Shown: positions 3,720 to 25,273 of the stretch, piece by piece
Numbering within the stretch: the first letter of the stretch is position 1
How the letters are laid out: each line of letters starts with the position of its first letter
From: a virus
DNA length: 27,358 bases
IMG/VR virus record: IMGVR_UViG_3300036985_002078
Span: 1-27,358 of that record
Reading direction: 5' to 3' (one strand)
Notes under the pieces: model-generated
The model's database searches: none
Seen by the model: the letters and a program-made list of their open reading frames with translations, nothing else
What the model was told of the DNA's origin: nothing
Program-made: the position numbers and the translations under genes

Positions 3720-4202
3720 ATGCCATACGAATCGACCATCGTCTTGAATGTACCCGCGGACGGTACGTATTTCGATATCAAACAGCACATCAAAGAAACA
3801 ACAATACAACACGGTATTGAGCCAGAAAAGTGGTCAATTACTGTAACTAGTGAACCTCATTGCTCATGGGGTTACGTCTCATATGTGCATCCGTTTTATG
3901 GCGCAATAGACATGGTCAATGCAAGTTGGTCGTTACGTTTCCCCAACTGCTCAATAGAGCGGATTCACCGGGTCACTCAGAAGAAGTTCTTTGAGGACAT
4001 TGCCAACAACACGCGGAGTGGACTGATTGGAATTGGTATTGTCCACAACCTCGTTGAGCTAAGCAACAAGGGTGTATCCACCGCCGGCATGTTGGCTTGG
4101 ATTAAAGACGTACGTTTTGATTGCAAGCTAATCAAGGAATGCCTCGAAGGAGTGCGAGGCTTACCGTATGAGCCTGGAAAAGACCACAACAATTACCCTT
4201 GA
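3720..4202 (+). CDS. hypothetical protein, 160 aa
   Basis: Starts at ATG 3720 with an AGGA-like site about nine bases upstream, directly after the terminator. The N-terminus alternates hydrophobic and polar residues (STIVLNVPADGTYFDI), as in beta strands. The middle is rich in aromatics (CSWGYVSYVHPFYG), and the C-terminal half looks helical (KKFFEDIANNTRSGL). No catalytic or binding motif is recognised. The last 35 bases overlap the next gene in another frame, suggesting coupled expression. Lying behind a terminator, it belongs to a separate or readthrough transcript from the recombination genes. Confidence 0.6.
   Translation: MPYESTIVLNVPADGTYFDIKQHIKETTIQHGIEPEKWSITVTSEPHCSWGYVSYVHPFYGAIDMVNASWSLRFPNCSIERIHRVTQKKFFEDIANNTRSGLIGIGIVHNLVELSNKGVSTAGMLAWIKDVRFDCKLIKECLEGVRGLPYEPGKDHNNYP
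4141..4160 (+). promoter_or_regulatory. hairpin with Shine-Dalgarno-like loop before the 4168 gene
   Basis: GCCTCG (4141-4146) pairs with CGAGGC (4155-4160), leaving AAGGAGTG exposed as the loop. GAGG in the 3' arm (4156-4159) lies eight bases from the ATG at 4168 and would be hidden when the hairpin forms, while the loop AAGGAG would be 15 bases away. It lies inside the upstream coding region. Confidence 0.4.
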
Positions 4203-4659
4203 ATCGGGCTGGGCACCCGGCAGGGGCGGTCGCTTGGAGACAAAGCGCCTGTACTTGAACGCAACCATCCCACGCCACTGGATGCCATCTAGGCACCGTA
4301 AACGGGGAATCAGCGAAGTCCTTGTAGTCCACTATCCCGACCACCCCCGCCACTGGTGGGCTGTTGTCCGCTACACCCTAGCAGCCAGCCACCCACCAGC
4401 GGGGGATCTGGTCGGACCGATGGAGGGAACCCCCTACCGAGTACGCAAGGCGGCCAACGTCTACACCCGAACGTGGGCAACCAGCACGGACATCCACATG
4501 TCCACCACCCTCAATCGCAATACGGTGTCCCAAATAGCCGAACTCACCACCCTCAACCCACTGTGGGTGGGCTCTCGATTCGTAGACCGCTGGGTCCACG
4601 GAGCCACCCGTTGGCACCCCGTACCAGCAGTCGTTGAATTGTGGATGCCACTCGGTTAA
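4168..4659 (+). CDS. hypothetical protein, 163 aa, rich in Trp, His, Pro and Arg
   Basis: Begins inside the end of the preceding gene, with GAGG eight bases upstream of the ATG, and ends in TAA at 4657-4659, sharing TTAA with the stop of the convergent minus-strand gene. The product is basic and rich in Trp, His, Arg and Pro (for example HYPDHPRHWWAVVRYTL and WVGSRFVDRWVHGATRWHP). This may be a compact beta protein, but no family is recognised. It looks more GC-rich than the gene before it. Because a long ORF also exists in another frame here (4356-4637), the choice rests on length, ribosome site and end position. It is the last plus-strand gene of the window. Confidence 0.55.
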   Translation: MSLEKTTTITLESGWAPGRGGRLETKRLYLNATIPRHWMPSRHRKRGISEVLVVHYPDHPRHWWAVVRYTLAASHPPAGDLVGPMEGTPYRVRKAANVYTRTWATSTDIHMSTTLNRNTVSQIAELTTLNPLWVGSRFVDRWVHGATRWHPVPAVVELWMPLG

Positions 4660-7600
4660 CGCTTCGGCAGATTGCTCCACACATACCGAGCGTTCTGTTC
4701 AATCGGGAACGTAGTAGTACCCGTTGCGTTTGGAACACTAGCACTCATGATGTCCTGATACTGTTCCTTCAAATCCTTATCAATCGAATCAATAGTTCTA
4801 CTTGACACACTCTCCTCACGAACACGCACGGCCTGTTTCATCTGCTGCTGCGTCACCGTGAGTGGCATTCCAAACTGCCTCTCGTAGTTAGCCTTGATCT
4901 GTCCAGCTTTTGCCATGTCATTGCCAAGTACAGATGCAATCCACTGCCGACGGATGTCACGCATCTGATCACGGTTTGACAACAAGAACTTGGTGACCTC
5001 AGTCTGGTTATTAAACCGGCCCATGTCGGTACCAATAGATCGTAAGATAATGTCTGCGCCCGAATACATACCAAGCATTCGTCCCTCTGCGTCATACATA
5101 GGGATGTTGCCCTCTGCATCAGGTGCACTCCAATCAGCAAACTTCTTCTGCAATCCAAGCGCCTGTAACGCTTCACTCTTTGGAGCACCACCAAGCGCAC
5201 GACTCAACGCGACCCCACCAGGGATAAGGAGGGGAACGATGTCGCTCATTACTTCCTTGTCACCACCAGACATCACTGCCCGGACTCCCGAGTACATGGC
5301 TTCTGCAAATGGTGGGGTCGGCAGTACAAACTTCTTGTCCTTCTCTACATCAATCTCTGGTGCCCAGCCAACAGCAAGTCCACGCGACACGTCAGCATCG
5401 AACATGTTCTTGAACACCTCGTATCCAATTGCAGATACACCAAGCATTCGGGCTGCATCAACACCCATGACTCCGTACTTGTTCTTGATTTCCATACCAA
5501 GTACGTTGCGCTCACCACCAATCATCCCCGGCATAGCAATGATGTTGACTGCTGATCGAACCGGGAACTGAAGGAACTGTCTAATAGCGGGGTTCCGCAA
5601 GTAGTCGTTGTAGAACATCAACGGCCTATTAAGCGGACTGCTACCAAACTGCATCATCTCAACCGCTTGACGTGCATCCTGTTGCGCGCGATATGGATCC
5701 AGCCTATTACTGCGACCGCCGGCAAGCCAGCCTTCTTCAGCAGCGTTCAACACGGCGTTTGCAGTTGCAACACGGTTGACCATTTCAGTTGCTTGAAACG
5801 GCTTCATCACCAACTCAAAGATGCCACCGCTCGGCTGCGTCAACTGCGATCCGTATCCAGCCTTCTCAACTGAGTTCCATGCAGAACCAATATCAGCAAT
5901 CTCACGAAGGTTTGTATTTACACCGCCAGTAAGAGTTCGCTTAAACGAACGATCCATTGCCGCTTCAATCTCTGCTGGAGACGCATTGCGTCCAAGCTTT
6001 GCACGTTCTCCTGAATAGTTGTACATCATCTCTATGGTCTGGCCATAGGCTCGTACTGTGTTCTTAAATCCCAGCTGATGCAAGTTGTGCAAGGGCTGTA
6101 ACAGATTAGTAAGAGCAGTGTTGAGGTTCAGACCAATCGTTGAACCGTAGAAAAGCTTTGCAACACCGCTACCAAGTTCTGCACTACCTGTTGGTGATGA
6201 TGCTCCATACCGACGCATACCACGAACAAACCGTTCTGAAACCCCACCAAGCTTCTCAACTGATTTGAACAAATCTGTGTTGGCTAGTTTCAAAGTCTGC
6301 GCACGGGTCCACTCCGACATGGCTACCGCTGCACCACTCTCCATAGAACGGTATCCCAGTAACGATGGAATCACATGCTTCTCCATGATGTTTGGCAAGT
6401 ACGCATCCGCTCCGAGTTGTTCTCGAAGAGCAGACATTTCCGTACTAATCAAATCATGCAAGGACAACCCACCAGCTGGGAGACGAGATTGTGGCGCGTA
6501 CTGTGGACGCGAAGACGCACGCATTCCCTTGACCATCCCGCCGGTGGGACCAGGGAAACGCACGTTTGTATTTGGACCACGGAAGTCTTGAAGAGCAGCA
6601 AGGACATTCTTGTCCGCCATTGGATTCTGCGAGAACATCACGACGTCTCGAGCAGCCGATCCAATGTACTTCTGAAGCGCAATATCAGGAGCCATCTTAA
6701 ACACCTTGTAGTGTCCGTTGACATCCGCGCGCCTTTGGCTCAGTGTTCTTTCGCGAGCGGACTTGAGCATGTCCTTTAGTTCTGGAGTAGAACCAAACTC
6801 GTCAATCAAGAACTGCACGTCATCGGGATCCATCGGCGATGAATCGCGCACACGAAACTTAGTGCGGCCAGACGGCGTTACCTCTCTACCAAACCCTGTT
6901 TGAAACCCACCACCCTGTGGCGCATAGACGGAATCAGCAACCTCTACCTTGGTCCCACCAACATTCTTGTAGGTAACTGATGTGTTACGCGGCAAGTAGT
7001 GCGGGTCATTTACAAGGGTCTTGTAGGTGTTGACAATCAGTCTTTCCATCTGGTCCGCGGTTGCCCCGCGACCTGGAAACTTCTTGCCGTACTCAATGAT
7101 TGCACCAGAAACCTCTGGCGACAACATGGAATTGATGGTCGTTGCTTCATCAAAGTTTAAGCGACCGTCTTTGCCAATGACACCCTGGTTCCGCAGATCA
7201 TTGACCGCACCACGGGCAATACGAAGAATCTTGTTGTCATCAATCTCAAAACGACCGGTCTTCTTAAACAATCTGTCGTTGCCATACAGCTTGGCACGAA
7301 CAGAGTTACGCATCTTGTTTGCGCCACGGATGAGATCCTTTAGTCCAAACTCATCAATATTGGCCTGCAACTTCCCAAGGTCGCCAATCAACTTCCCTCT
7401 ACTGATTGTCTGATACTCAACGGTGGGGCCAGAATGCAACACACCATCACCACGGTTGCCGTCCTTTGAGTACACACTAAACGAGCGGTACTCGCCGGCG
7501 TGGCGCTGCGCCTCGGTTGATGTTGAGTAACTTGTTGCGCTTATGGCATCATCAATCTGGACATCACCGGCAGCATCCTTAGAGATCTTTAGGAAGTTTG

Positions 7601-18854: not shown

Positions 18855-19876
18855 GGTGGTGGGGCTGGGCAATTACCAGATATTGGATTGTTAGCAGTAA
18901 ACCAGTACTTGGTGCCCCACTTAAACACCTGAACAATGACTCCAGTTGGAACAGCATTAACTTTGAAATCATCGTAATCAGTCAAGTCCATTTGGCTTCC
19001 ATCAACAGTTGATGGCTCGCCATAGGTCAAAGTACTTGTGTTGGCTGTCTCAAGAAAGTTGTAACAGGTAACACTACCCACGTCATTCTCAAAGAACGGC
19101 CAAGTTGCCTTTGTCTTTTGCAACGCTGCCGTGTATTCCCAATAGCCATTTGCCGCCTGAATAGCTGCACCGGTAATCTTGTACACACCAACAGCCTGTC
19201 GAGTAAATGCAGTTACGCGGCCAAACCCATCAACCGTAACATCTGACACCAGCCCAATATCAGTTGGTGGTGTCACGGTAATTACTTTTAGCTGAAGGGA
19301 ACTTCCGCCTAGCAATCCAAACGAATCAGTGCTGTCGTAATTCAGGCTTGCAACCTGATTGTTAGACATGCTTCCGCCCGGAGTAACTACTACCGGAAGA
19401 GTTGCACTCAAACTTCCAGTAGACGCACCGGTTGAGTAAGTAACTTCAACAACTCCATCGCCAGCATCAGTTACTTCGCCGTCTGGGAAGTTAAAGAAGA
19501 TTTGACTGACTGGATCAACAATGACTTCATTACTACTGATGTCGTAGAACTTGCATGAGATTGGATCCGAGCCGCCACCAGTAGTGTTAGTAGTATTTGA
19601 ATTATTAAATACTTCCCCGTTACCACCAGTTCCGCCACCAATAAAGATATTGGTTGGATTGAACCCACCAACTGGTGGTCCTGGAATCCAGGGAATTAAG
19701 AAGTTAGTTGACGGAACCGTTGGGTACGCAATGTTAAATGATGTGGGACTAGAGCCACCCGACGACCAACCTACCTGGGTGCCACCAAACAGATTACGAA
19801 GTAGCCATTGATTTGGCGTGTTTGGGTAGTTGCCCTCGTTATCCGTGATGTCTTTATCTTGCCCAGGAATAGGCAT
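18851..19876 (-). CDS. tail fibre-like protein
   Basis: 341 aa, with a TGATG junction to the adaptor gene (stop and start share A at 19876). The N-terminal 110 residues are Gly/Pro/Asn/Thr-rich (for example FIGGGTGGNGEVFNNSNTTN) and probably flexible. The middle has beta strands typical of fibre shafts (FFNFPDGEVTDAGDGVVEVT, DVTVDGFGRVTAFTRQ), and the C-terminus is a mixed beta domain ending in a Pro-rich tail (SGNCPAPPP). The phrase VTVDGFGRVTA resembles the short repeats seen in many phage fibre shafts. A fibre or appendage role is likely; the receptor is unknown. Confidence 0.55.
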   Translation of the reverse strand: MPIPGQDKDITDNEGNYPNTPNQWLLRNLFGGTQVGWSSGGSSPTSFNIAYPTVPSTNFLIPWIPGPPVGGFNPTNIFIGGGTGGNGEVFNNSNTTNTTGGGSDPISCKFYDISSNEVIVDPVSQIFFNFPDGEVTDAGDGVVEVTYSTGASTGSLSATLPVVVTPGGSMSNNQVASLNYDSTDSFGLLGGSSLQLKVITVTPPTDIGLVSDVTVDGFGRVTAFTRQAVGVYKITGAAIQAANGYWEYTAALQKTKATWPFFENDVGSVTCYNFLETANTSTLTYGEPSTVDGSQMDLTDYDDFKVNAVPTGVIVQVFKWGTKYWFTANNPISGNCPAPPP

Positions 19877-21030
19877 CAGATGTTTCTCCAGTCGTTCAAC
19901 TTGTTGTCCGCAGTGCTGCGCTCGAAGTACTTCGGCACGCGCATCTGCTGGCTACTGAAGTGATCCATGCACGTCTTCATTGCGTCCTTGTACTGTAACT
20001 GAAGCAATTGGAACTGCGACATTGGAATCTTCTTGTACGTCCCAAGCTTCATAGCCCCACCAACAGCTACGGCTTCATAGAGGGATTCAAGGCCAAATGG
20101 CGCGTACTCAACCGTTACCGTGCCGGCAGACGCATAGGTAAACGGTAGGCGAACGGTTGTCTTCCAATACGTGTTGTCCTTGGTCCAAGCAGAAACAATG
20201 CGTTCTTCAATAATGCCGGTAGTAGTCAAGATACGAACCGTGCTACCAAGATAGGCATTATCACGGCGATCAATGACACCAACAGTTGGCGATGTTGACA
20301 AGGGAATTGTGATGATTCCTTTGTCTGTAGCACACGTCAAACCGCTAACACTTCCAGCAGTTGTACTAATTGCATCACCACCAGAAGTTGCTGACAGCGT
20401 AAATGTTGTAGTTCCGTTGGTTGCAATAACGTAATACTTTGTACCGGTTGTGTATCCGGTAATGATGCCAGTTCCGCCATTTGTACCAGTGATAGTAATG
20501 TCTTGACCAACTACAATTGTTGTTGCAGTGGTGCAGGTAAATGCACCACTGCTTCCAATAGTTGCTAGTACTGGTGGGCCAACAAGAGTTGCCGGCGTAA
20601 TGAATGGCATGATCTCACCATTGTGCATGAACTGCAATTCAATGTCATCGTAGTCCTGGTCAGGTGTTGGATTGAAGACAATCATGTTGCCTTCTACCTT
20701 CCAGTTTGGACCACGATAGTGATACTCGGTACGTGGCATTGCCTCGCGGCTAACGTACTTGTCATCGTTGCGGATAGCCATACGCCACACCTCGCCAACA
20801 CATGGTGGGAGTGCGTAGTACTGTGTTCCCTGTGTAAGAGGAAATGGAATCCACACGCTAATTGGATTTGTTAGAGAGTTGTTGATGCGCGATGACACCG
20901 ATGCAAACATCGGGCTAATGACGTGCTTTACGAGGAAGTTGTCGTCGTACTTGGCATCAATAGATGGATCATCAAGATACGCACGGGTGCGATCTAGGAC
21001 TGTTTGGATAAATCCACCTGTTGCGTCCAT
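19876..21030 (-). CDS. head-to-tail adaptor-like protein with an inserted beta domain
   Basis: 384 aa, TAATG-coupled to the previous gene. The N-terminal helical part (FIQTVLDRTRAYLDDPSID ... FLVKHVISPMFASVSSRI) and the C-terminal helices (GGAMKLGTYKKIPMSQFQL, YKDAMKTCMDHF) match the plan of podoviral adaptor (tail tubular A-like) proteins that ring the portal exit. Between them, residues about 150-235 form a Thr/Gly-rich insert (GTNGGTGIITGYTTGTKYY, TTTFTLSAT), a beta sandwich of the type found as an add-on in many phage surface proteins. Order after the capsid group and before fibre and nozzle genes supports the call. The adaptor assignment is by architecture and context. Confidence 0.55.
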   Translation of the reverse strand: MDATGGFIQTVLDRTRAYLDDPSIDAKYDDNFLVKHVISPMFASVSSRINNSLTNPISVWIPFPLTQGTQYYALPPCVGEVWRMAIRNDDKYVSREAMPRTEYHYRGPNWKVEGNMIVFNPTPDQDYDDIELQFMHNGEIMPFITPATLVGPPVLATIGSSGAFTCTTATTIVVGQDITITGTNGGTGIITGYTTGTKYYVIATNGTTTFTLSATSGGDAISTTAGSVSGLTCATDKGIITIPLSTSPTVGVIDRRDNAYLGSTVRILTTTGIIEERIVSAWTKDNTYWKTTVRLPFTYASAGTVTVEYAPFGLESLYEAVAVGGAMKLGTYKKIPMSQFQLLQLQYKDAMKTCMDHFSSQQMRVPKYFERSTADNKLNDWRNI

Positions 21031-21557
21031 TAGTGTCTACCTGCCATTTGGCGAAGAGTTTCACAAGTCCGTGCATACGACGCGCCGCCTCTAGCAGCAC
21101 CAATCCAAGGCGTTTTACCAGTAGCAATATTACGAGCCTCAACATCATTTCCCTGCTTGTGAAGCATCTTAATTGCTTCCTTCTTTTGCAGCTCGTTTTC
21201 CTCATACTCATGCTTGCGCTGGCTCACGCCCAAACGCATTTTGTCCTTCATAGCACGCACCGTATCGTCAACCGGCGAACACCGCGCACGCAACTCCGAT
21301 GCCGACATCCAACCACCCCGATCCGGTGGGGTATCAAAGCACTCTAGTTCCAAGCACACGTCCGGCTTAAACAGCCACTTGGCAAACACGTAGTTGCCCG
21401 TGCGCTTGTGGTGGTACATGAACAACTCAGGAATACCGGTCACACGACGCGCAAAGCGGATCCAATCGCCATCGGGCATGATCTCATGATCTTCATACAT
21501 GGCAAGGCCGGCACACGCAGCCTCGTACTTAGCATCAAATGTGATCTCAATATCCAT
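21030..21557 (-). CDS. hypothetical protein, 175 aa
   Basis: The start is ATG 21557, which overlaps the previous stop (TAATG); a GTG at 21569 would overlap more and is less likely. The N-terminal half is a compact alpha/beta domain (MDIEITFDAKYEAACAGLAM, IPELFMYHHKRTGNYVFAKW), followed by a charged helix (QRKHEYEENELQKKEAIKML) and a Gly/Ala/Arg tail. It sits between the DUF6321-like protein and the adaptor, so a role in head completion or neck assembly is plausible. I recognise no named family. Confidence 0.65.
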   Translation of the reverse strand: MDIEITFDAKYEAACAGLAMYEDHEIMPDGDWIRFARRVTGIPELFMYHHKRTGNYVFAKWLFKPDVCLELECFDTPPDRGGWMSASELRARCSPVDDTVRAMKDKMRLGVSQRKHEYEENELQKKEAIKMLHKQGNDVEARNIATGKTPWIGAARGGASYARTCETLRQMAGRH

Positions 21558-21805
21558 TAGCAGTTCCACGCCCGAAGGCTTTTATTGATGCGGGAGTTTG
21601 GATCGTTTGCAGTCTTGGCGCTCGTCAACTTCTTCTTCATGCCGCTCATGCGCGCGCAGAACGACTTCTTGCGCGAACCGCCTTCGGGCTGGGGACGCTT
21701 TAGGTTGCCGCCAGTGGCGCTGTTGTATGCCTTCCGACCCAATTCACTCAGGCCGCCAAGCGGGTTCTTGTGCTTTGACTTGAATTGGAAGGACTTCTTT
21801 GCCAT
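21557..21805 (-). CDS. small basic protein, DUF6321-like
   Basis: 82 aa, starting immediately after the previous stop (TAA then ATG). It carries the conserved core GGLSELGRKAYNSATG then NLKRPQPEGGSRKKSFCARM, and ends in NDPNSRINKSLRAWNC. From memory this pattern, with its fixed PQPEGGSRKKSFCARMSG and a final WNC, defines a small family (DUF6321) found next to phage head genes. It is very basic and has two fixed cysteines. Function is unestablished; position between capsid and adaptor genes suggests a virion-assembly or DNA-contact role. Confidence 0.7.
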   Translation of the reverse strand: MAKKSFQFKSKHKNPLGGLSELGRKAYNSATGGNLKRPQPEGGSRKKSFCARMSGMKKKLTSAKTANDPNSRINKSLRAWNC

Positions 21806-22248: not shown

Positions 22249-22599
22249 TTATTTCAGGGTCAGTAGGTACTTTGTGTGTTGAACAAGACCAAGCATTTCG
22301 TCGCGGATGTTGAGCAATGCGGTTTCTTTAGGACTAAAATCCGTTGGAACTTCATTGCGAAGAGTGTCTTCGAGATCATCAAGAACGTCTTCAATGTCAT
22401 CATCAATAACAATTGTTTTGATTTTGGAGAGAGGCTCACGACCCTTTACACCAATAAACGTTTCAACAAATGTGTCAATTAAACCGTCTAGGCCCTCGTA
22501 TGCCTTACCAAGCGCTTTGTGTTGGGCATAAGACGTAGTAAGCCAATGCTGCATACGGATAGACAGTTGAGCTTCAAGAATTTTTTCAATGCATGACAT
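22249..22599 (-). CDS. small helical protein with a Dps/ferritin-like motif (DUF5856-like)
   Basis: 116 aa from ATG 22599; the frame opens further upstream but only across the terminator. Residues 17-46 read QHWLTTSYAQHKALG then KAYEGLDGLIDTFVE, with H18-W19, H27, D38, D42 and E46. The H27-to-D42 (15) and D42-to-E46 (4) spacing equals that of the Dps ferroxidase set, while the first HW-to-His gap is 9 rather than 12. I recall similar sequences annotated DUF5856 in aquatic phages. A four-helix bundle that may bind iron or coat DNA is inferred. It is the first gene after the capsid terminator, with a TATAAT box just upstream and no Shine-Dalgarno, so it may be leaderless. Confidence 0.6.
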   Translation of the reverse strand: MSCIEKILEAQLSIRMQHWLTTSYAQHKALGKAYEGLDGLIDTFVETFIGVKGREPLSKIKTIVIDDDIEDVLDDLEDTLRNEVPTDFSPKETALLNIRDEMLGLVQHTKYLLTLK

Positions 22600-22605
22600 G
22601 TAGGC

Positions 22606-22611
22606 ATTATA
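22606..22611 (-). promoter_or_regulatory. candidate -10 box (TATAAT) for the Dps-like gene
   Basis: On the minus strand TATAAT occupies 22611-22606, ending six bases before the ATG at 22599. That would put the first transcribed base at or next to the A of the ATG. The hexamer 17 bases upstream (22634-22629, GGCTGT) is a poor -35. It lies just downstream of the capsid terminator, where a new promoter would be needed. Confidence 0.4.
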
Positions 22612-22620
22612 AGCGGCAGG

Positions 22621-22661
22621 CCAAAAACACAGCCACCAAGATCCGAAAATCCTGGTGGCTG
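22621..22661 (-). terminator. intrinsic terminator after the capsid gene
   Basis: Read on the minus strand, CAGCCACCAGGAT (22661-22649) pairs with ATCTTGGTGGCTG (22642-22630) through 13 positions including one G-U, with a 6-nt loop, and is followed by TGTTTTTGG. On the plus strand the wobble becomes an A-C mismatch and no T-tract follows, so the structure acts on the minus strand. It ends the portal-scaffold-capsid transcript. Confidence 0.8.
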
Positions 22662-24382: not shown

Positions 24383-25273
24383 TTATGCTTTGGATTCCCC
24401 ACCAGCGGAGGTTTCCACAGCCAAACGAGAGAGAGTGTCCGTATTCCATGCTCGAACATTCGTATCAATATCGCCACGTTCCATGCCCTTCTTAAACTCG
24501 GGCACCGCAACCGGTGGCTTTGCAGCAAGTGTGTCCATCTCCGTAACTGTTTCCGGTGTCCGACCAATTTGGTCAAAGTCACCGATGACTGTCGAATAAG
24601 ACTTTGCTACATCCATAGCAGCTCGCGCTGCCTCTTCTTGAATCCAGTCTTCGCTGAAAGTGCCACCAGACTTGTCTCGGCGTTCGTAGAGCCGATCCAT
24701 GGTTGCTTTGCGAATCTGGTCCTGAATTGCCTGGTAGGCACCCGTGGCATGTTCGCGTCCACGTGTCTTATCCAGACCTGTCAACATCTTCCCAATGTCT
24801 GAGTTACTGTCAATAGCCCCAGCAACTCCTTTTTCCATTTCTTGTTGCATTAAACGAAGCCGCATCTGGCGGGTTTCCGTTGCCAACTTGTCGTATCGTG
24901 GGTCGTTTTCCATTCGTTGTGCCTTGTTTCCTTGTGTGTTTTCTTCAACTTCTTCTTCTGGTTCATCATCAGTCTGCGACTGCGACTGGTTCCAGTCTCT
25001 TACGTATTCCTTGACCTCATCGTCATTGAATCCGGCTCCCTCAAGCATCTTGGATGCAGCCGAAGCAATCTCATGTTGTTCGCCCTCTCGACGAAGAAAC
25101 TGAGTAGCAGAATCACGAAACTCACGAAGGTTCCTTACTTCGTCATGTAACCCACCAGCCTGATGGATTGCATCAATCAATCGTTGTACTGGAATCAAAT
25201 CTCCATCCACTTCCACAAGAGTGTTGAGGTTCCGTACAACCTGTTCGTCTCCGGCATCGTTTTCATCAGCCAT
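24383..25273 (-). CDS. capsid scaffolding protein
   Basis: 296 aa, abutting the portal stop (TAA then ATG), with AGGG about ten bases upstream. It is strongly acidic and helical: an N-terminal acidic segment (MADENDAGDEQVVRNL), a DDEPEEEVEENTQG stretch near residue 100-115, then long charged helices (ATETRQMRLRLMQQEMEKGV). No enzymatic motif is present. Acidic, Gln/Glu-rich helical proteins of about this length between portal and capsid are typical assembly scaffolds that guide capsid folding and are lost or cleaved afterwards. No protease gene is seen in the window. Confidence 0.8.
   Translation of the reverse strand: MADENDAGDEQVVRNLNTLVEVDGDLIPVQRLIDAIHQAGGLHDEVRNLREFRDSATQFLRREGEQHEIASAASKMLEGAGFNDDEVKEYVRDWNQSQSQTDDEPEEEVEENTQGNKAQRMENDPRYDKLATETRQMRLRLMQQEMEKGVAGAIDSNSDIGKMLTGLDKTRGREHATGAYQAIQDQIRKATMDRLYERRDKSGGTFSEDWIQEEAARAAMDVAKSYSTVIGDFDQIGRTPETVTEMDTLAAKPPVAVPEFKKGMERGDIDTNVRAWNTDTLSRLAVETSAGGESKA

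Follow-up and report, generated by a model that had tools for sequence, protein, structure and literature searches.

Gene Organization of the Locus

The window, by which we mean the whole 27,358-nt stretch of viral DNA analyzed here, contained on its minus strand a gene for a 116-amino acid protein of the Pfam family DUF5856, here called P0001, which was located between the genes for a putative major capsid protein and a DUF6321 protein (Table 1). The open reading frame extends from an ATG codon at position 22599 to a stop codon that ends at 22249, and the start matches the MSCI and MECI starts in many of the homologs. The virus lineage of the window is apparently known only from metagenomes, and the tested putative structural genes on the minus strand between positions 4656 and 27262 gave no PHROG or Pfam match, barring those for DUF5856, DUF6321, and the weak adaptor similarity.

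The preliminary description had placed P0001 next to the capsid gene. The gene order fits this placement, in that the gene for the 548-amino acid protein is situated after the portal-like gene and before the SU10-adaptor-like gene. The order recurred in 80 loci that contained the 548-amino acid gene, and consisted of genes for proteins of 662, 296, and 548 amino acids, a variable slot, the DUF6321 gene, a gene for a 179-amino acid protein, and the adaptor-like gene. However, the 548-amino acid protein matched no Pfam or PHROG family and nothing meaningful in the PDB, a tblastn search of 50,697 phage records was negative, and the AlphaFold model of the protein was poor (pLDDT 47). From gene order only, we consider it plausible that this is the major capsid protein. 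The 662-amino acid protein matched neither PDB nor PHROG entries, nor did it match the P22-like portal of MW202828.

A DUF5856 gene occupied the variable slot in 17 of the 80 loci, several of which are on incomplete contigs, and was located directly behind the 548-amino acid gene in 12 of them. It was also noted that the DUF6321 protein of the window is a stand-alone protein of 82 amino acids, the DNA of which matches cyanophage genomes, and that in other phages this domain is found at the C terminus of proteins as long as about 930 amino acids.

Table 1 Positions of the genes, sequence elements, and codons considered here
Feature	Position	Strand	Evidence or remark
384-aa protein, weak SU10-adaptor similarity	19876..21030	-	PF24175 E 5e-5, below cut-off
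DUF6321 protein, conserved downstream neighbor	21557..21805	-	Pfam PF19846 E 1.2e-20; synteny
DUF5856 Dps-like protein (P0001), 116 aa	22249..22599	-	Pfam PF19174, PHROG 858, AlphaFold, homolog conservation
D42 to E46 codons, Dps D78/E82 equivalents	22462..22476	-	Translation, hhalign register
G31 codon, Dps D67 position	22507..22509	-	Asp in T4-like and some other DUF5856 members
H27 codon, helix B start, Dps H63 equivalent	22519..22521	-	Translation, hhalign register
H18-W19 codons, helix A end, Dps H51-W52 equivalent	22543..22548	-	Translation, hhalign register
TATAAT, leaderless-type -10 element	22606..22611	-	Exactly 6 nt before ATG at 22599
Terminator-like hairpin behind putative capsid gene	22630..22661	-	14-bp stem, UUCG-type loop, then TGTTTTTGG
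Putative major capsid protein, 548 aa	22703..24349	-	Identity by position only
296-aa protein, putative scaffold position	24383..25273	-	Synteny
Probable portal protein, 662 aa	25274..27262	-	Weak hhalign to SU10 portal, E 6e-4; synteny

Putative Regulatory Signals Upstream of the P0001 Gene

The segment between the capsid-like gene and the P0001 gene (22600-22702, minus strand) holds a cassette of a terminator-like hairpin and a leaderless-type hexamer, which was also found behind the 548-amino acid gene in other loci (L187-L229). The stem-loop at 22661-22630 is followed by a T tract, and the 101-nt hairpin region folded with -41.3 kcal/mol (z -3.97). The relatives displayed the same layout of hairpin and hexamer, with stem sequences that differed.

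Over all distinct loci, a TANNNT motif located 6 nt before the start codon was observed behind the 548-amino acid gene in 34 of 55 cases. It was present in 9 of 9 distinct loci in which the first gene after the 548-amino acid gene encoded DUF5856, in 3 of 3 in which it encoded DUF6321, and in 8 of 10 in which it encoded the 179-amino acid protein. No such motif was found 6 nt before the start of the 296-amino acid gene (0/59), the 548-amino acid gene (0/61), the adaptor-like gene (0/35), or the 179-amino acid gene when this was located elsewhere (0/30). The motif thus tracks the position after the 548-amino acid gene, which argues that the slot, rather than any particular gene, bears the terminator and the leaderless-type promoter. 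Since the counts in a simple sigma-70 and terminator scan were not above those in shuffled sequences, the case for these elements rests on their conservation in the relatives. We infer that a transcript may start at the ATG of the DUF5856 gene. The earlier assignment of the gene to a shared head operon is therefore doubtful, or at least imprecise, given that the gene has a promoter-like element of its own and is preceded by a terminator hairpin.

Family Assignment and Predicted Fold

P0001 matched the DUF5856 profile (PF19174) over positions 1 to 94 of 94, with an E-value of 1.9e-17 and a score of 64.6 bits compared to the Pfam gathering cut-off of 34.6, and it was assigned to PHROG 858 with an E-value of 6.2e-19. 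The latter family, which includes the T4-like gene rI.-1 and with which P0001 shares the invariant residues, is labeled "starvation-inducible transcriptional regulator" with no mention of iron, and Pfam gives DUF5856 no function. The profile search suggested in the preliminary description thus yielded a DUF5856 match, whereas the ferritin/Dps profile PF00210 did not match P0001 at E-values up to 10. By sequence, P0001 is for this reason not a classical Dps, and it is classed as a Dps-like DUF5856 protein rather than as a member of PF00210.

The AlphaFold model, which was based on 49 homologs, was a confident four-helix bundle (mean pLDDT 94, pTM 0.86), as the proposed relationship to Dps requires. 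The helices are predicted at residues 3 to 20, 24 to 52, 55 to 58, 69 to 87, and 93 to 114, of which the third is a short BC helix. The helices of Dps come in the order A-B-BC-C-D, and the predicted helices of P0001 follow the same order. In a Foldseek search of the PDB with the P0001 model, the top 23 matches were all Dps proteins or bacterioferritins, with E. coli Dps in first place, followed by Dpr, mycobacterial and cyanobacterial Dps, and the bacterioferritins; the probabilities reached 0.99, but by E-value the matches were weak (best 0.17), with rmsd values of 4 to 6 Å. Among predicted viral proteins, the strong matches included proteins of uncultured phages as well as of Pithovirus and Fadolivirus; crAss-like phage proteins annotated as DNA-binding or DpsA matched less strongly.

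Ferroxidase-Type Ligands and Relationship to Dps

The translation confirmed the numbering of H18-W19, H27, D42, and E46 in P0001, as well as the reported spacings of 9, 15, and 4 residues, of which the last two (H-D-E) are the same as in Dps. A pattern that captures this arrangement (HWx7-10Hx14Dx3E) occurred in 3 of 200,000 shuffled versions of P0001. It was matched 213 times among the 19,031 open reading frames of at least 45 codons in all of the fetched loci, and all of the matches were in DUF5856 or Dps/ferritin-family proteins. The motif in P0001 therefore exceeds what is expected by chance.

An hhalign comparison of DUF5856 with an alignment of 13 Dps proteins gave an E-value of 5e-5 and a probability of 68% over helices A and B only. 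In this alignment, H18, W19, H27, D42, and E46 were placed on H51, W52, H63, D78, and E82 of Dps, and a deletion of 3 residues in the A-B loop accounted for the shorter first gap (9 instead of 12 residues). H51, H63, D78, and E82 were invariant in the 13 Dps proteins. The fifth Dps ligand, D67, corresponds to Gly31 in P0001 and its branch, although D67 also varies among the Dps proteins. A search of PDB sequences with a profile built from 40 diverse DUF5856 members gave H. pylori NapA (1ji4) as the best match (6.5e-4), and almost only Dps-family chains were recovered down to an E-value of 0.3. A search of the PDB with the P0001 sequence by itself gave 4 matches, including Dpr, with an E-value of about 1.3, which is too weak to stand alone. 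PF00210 gave no score, and the kinship with Dps is visible just by profile-profile or profile-PDB searches.

P0001 resembles E. coli Dps, H. pylori NapA, and S. suis Dpr (1umn) in the four-helix bundle with a BC helix and in the HW...H...D...E ligands, and an inter-subunit metal site like theirs is likewise implied by the model. It differs from them in length (116 compared to about 150 to 170 amino acids), in the absence of N- and C-terminal tails, in the shorter A-B loop, and in the glycine at the position of Asp67, a ligand that the T4-like members and a few more DUF5856 proteins retain. Furthermore, the D-helix motif NIRDEM...TKYLLTL of P0001 is absent from the Dps alignment.

We searched for free variation at H27, D42, and E46 among the homologs. 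These 3 residues and H18 were identical in 145 of 145 distinct homologs, including those in T4-like phages and Candidatus Actinomarina chromosomes, a conservation that is somewhat inflated because part of the set was gathered with peptide patterns that cover some of the ligand residues. The T4-like members were retrieved from annotated phage records by tblastn with no motif filter; they have lost W19 and kept the 4 core ligands. The only other positions conserved in all 145 homologs were L113 and the start methionine. W19 was a Trp in 133 of the 145 homologs and otherwise a Leu or Phe, while position 31 was an Asp in 12 and a Glu in 2; in the T4-like members it was mostly Asp, with Glu in Proteus and Providencia phages. 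Overall, the fold, profile, and conservation evidence backs the original view of P0001 as a protein with a Dps/ferritin-like fold and a ferroxidase-type ligand set.

Distribution and Genomic Context of DUF5856

Relatives of DUF5856 were identified by tblastn in 1,308 phage records at E-values up to 1. Outside the lineage of the window, the genes were located beside replication, nucleotide-metabolism, and lysis-control genes and not beside head genes. In 4 of 5 sampled T4-like genomes, the DUF5856 gene was situated behind the thymidine-kinase region and overlapped the end of an annotated rI-type gene, whereas the fifth genome had no such annotation. The DUF5856 gene started inside the end of the rI-type gene with an overlap of 8 to 14 nt (L290-L293), suggesting translational coupling. 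The T4-like rI.-1 gene thus sits behind rI, whereas the P0001 gene follows the putative capsid gene and has a promoter-like element of its own.

The other viral neighbors of DUF5856 included genes for DNA polymerase, a gp32-like protein, ribonucleotide reductase, and nucleases. On a viral contig of 347 kb (L079), the genes for DUF5856 and an Fe/Mn superoxide dismutase were located at positions 3992-4357 and 5930-6616, respectively; the dismutase gene lies about 1.6 kb downstream, which counts in favor of an iron-oxidizing function.

DUF5856 genes were also located among cellular genes in Candidatus Actinomarina, with a common gene order in 9 of the loci that were fetched. The loci in this marine bacterial family (L083-L096 and L294-L297) are chromosomal, and DUF5856 was present in 14 of the 42 genomes. 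PF00210 was detected in none of the 42 genomes, compared to 14 of 14 control genomes, a result that likewise counts in favor of an iron-oxidizing function but is provisional as genome completeness is unreported.

Proposed Function and Alternative Explanations

H27 is separated from D42 and E46 by 15 to 19 residues on one continuous predicted helix, corresponding to a distance of about 22 Å or more at 1.5 Å per residue. A single metal can therefore not be bound by these residues within a monomer, and the site would have to lie between subunits, like that of Dps; the model implies that this would occur in an antiparallel dimer. The explanation that we favor, and consider likely, is that P0001 is a minimal, tail-less, Dps-like mini-ferritin of the DUF5856 family. 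Two copies would pack antiparallel along helix B, as they do in Dps, and each H18/H27 pair would face the D42 and E46 residues of the partner copy, giving 2 metal sites per dimer. The protein probably oxidizes Fe(II) with peroxide or oxygen, which would limit Fenton damage to the host DNA and the replicating phage DNA during infection, and it would be made from its own transcript, which would begin downstream of the terminator that follows the putative capsid gene.

Of the 2 roles suggested in the preliminary description, iron binding and DNA coating, the Dps-like fold and ligands speak for the first; because these are supported, the management of host iron is the likeliest role of P0001. The second, under which P0001 would be part of the virion and would coat or protect the DNA inside, fared poorly and is in our view very improbable. 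The basic DNA-binding tail is a feature of a subset of DNA-binding Dps proteins, such as E. coli Dps. In P0001, helix A begins at residue 3 with no basic tail, the pI is 4.8, and the net charge is -8, compared to a family mean of -5.6. Some relatives in the same slot do have an N-terminal extension of some 20 to 45 residues, a potential tail, and tail-dependent contact with DNA is possible in these relatives but not in P0001. A virion protein would also fit the finding that 12 of the 17 DUF5856-bearing loci of this lineage have the gene immediately after the putative capsid gene. However, just 17 of the 80 loci with the capsid-like gene carry DUF5856 (some loci being incomplete), a terminator hairpin and a promoter-like element separate the 2 genes, and other phages have DUF5856 among replication or lysis-control genes. 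Most likely, it is the infected cell, rather than packaged DNA, that P0001 shields from damage by iron and peroxide.

This small gene, which invariably shares the strand of the putative capsid and adaptor genes and lies between them, might instead encode a structural head or connector protein that reuses a ferritin-like bundle with a merely structural metal site. We regard this as very improbable, since homologs are also found at a distance from head genes and on bacterial chromosomes, and since unrelated proteins can occupy the same slot, as would be expected for optional cargo. It is less improbable, but still unlikely, that DUF5856 proteins are dimeric metal-binding proteins with a Dps-type site but no cage or iron storage, in which Zn, Mn, or Fe serves structure, sensing, or regulation, such as lysis timing in T4-like phages. 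The short loops, the missing tails, a main branch that has lost the D67 ligand, the overlap with the end of the rI-type gene in 4 sampled T4-like genomes, and the PHROG label of transcriptional regulator are all consistent with such a function. Yet all 4 catalytic-type ligands are kept in all 145 sequences, the linkage to rI was not seen outside the T4-like phages, and it is the T4-like branch, beside rI, that retains an acidic fifth ligand, which fits iron chemistry.

Beyond the mini-ferritin proposed for P0001, we tentatively suggest, while leaning slightly against it, that DUF5856 as a whole forms its own minimal branch within the Dps superfamily and owes its spread mostly to viruses (T4-like phages, uncultured phages, and, according to the fold search, giant viruses). 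Its members would have a four-ligand inter-subunit ferroxidase site, might form dimers or a cage smaller than that of Dps, and would be the only ferritin-like protein left in Candidatus Actinomarina. With this, a Pfam family that lacks an assigned function but occurs in more than a thousand sequenced phage genomes gains a concrete candidate chemistry. If this is true, the control of iron and peroxide would be a common phage trait, shared by T4-like laboratory phages in which the gene is located behind the lysis-inhibition gene rI, and it would hint at how a marine bacterial family with no recognizable ferritin may handle iron. In our literature search, we found no paper that names DUF5856 or PF19174, and none that pairs Actinomarina with ferritin.

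Classical Dps proteins have been described in Lactobacillus phages (PMC6669764) and in the "Gratiaviridae" gut phages (PMC8008677), and have been proposed to raise the oxidative tolerance of the infected host (PMC6669764, PMC8008677). Our search with E. coli Dps showed that Streptomyces phages likewise carry a classical Dps. Both these proteins and DUF5856 are phage-borne ferritin-like proteins, but the former are recognizable as Dps, whereas DUF5856 is a separate, shorter family. The search with E. coli Dps retrieved 155 phage records at E-values up to 0.1, compared to the 1,308 records for DUF5856 at E-values up to 1, which is a rough comparison only as the limits differ.
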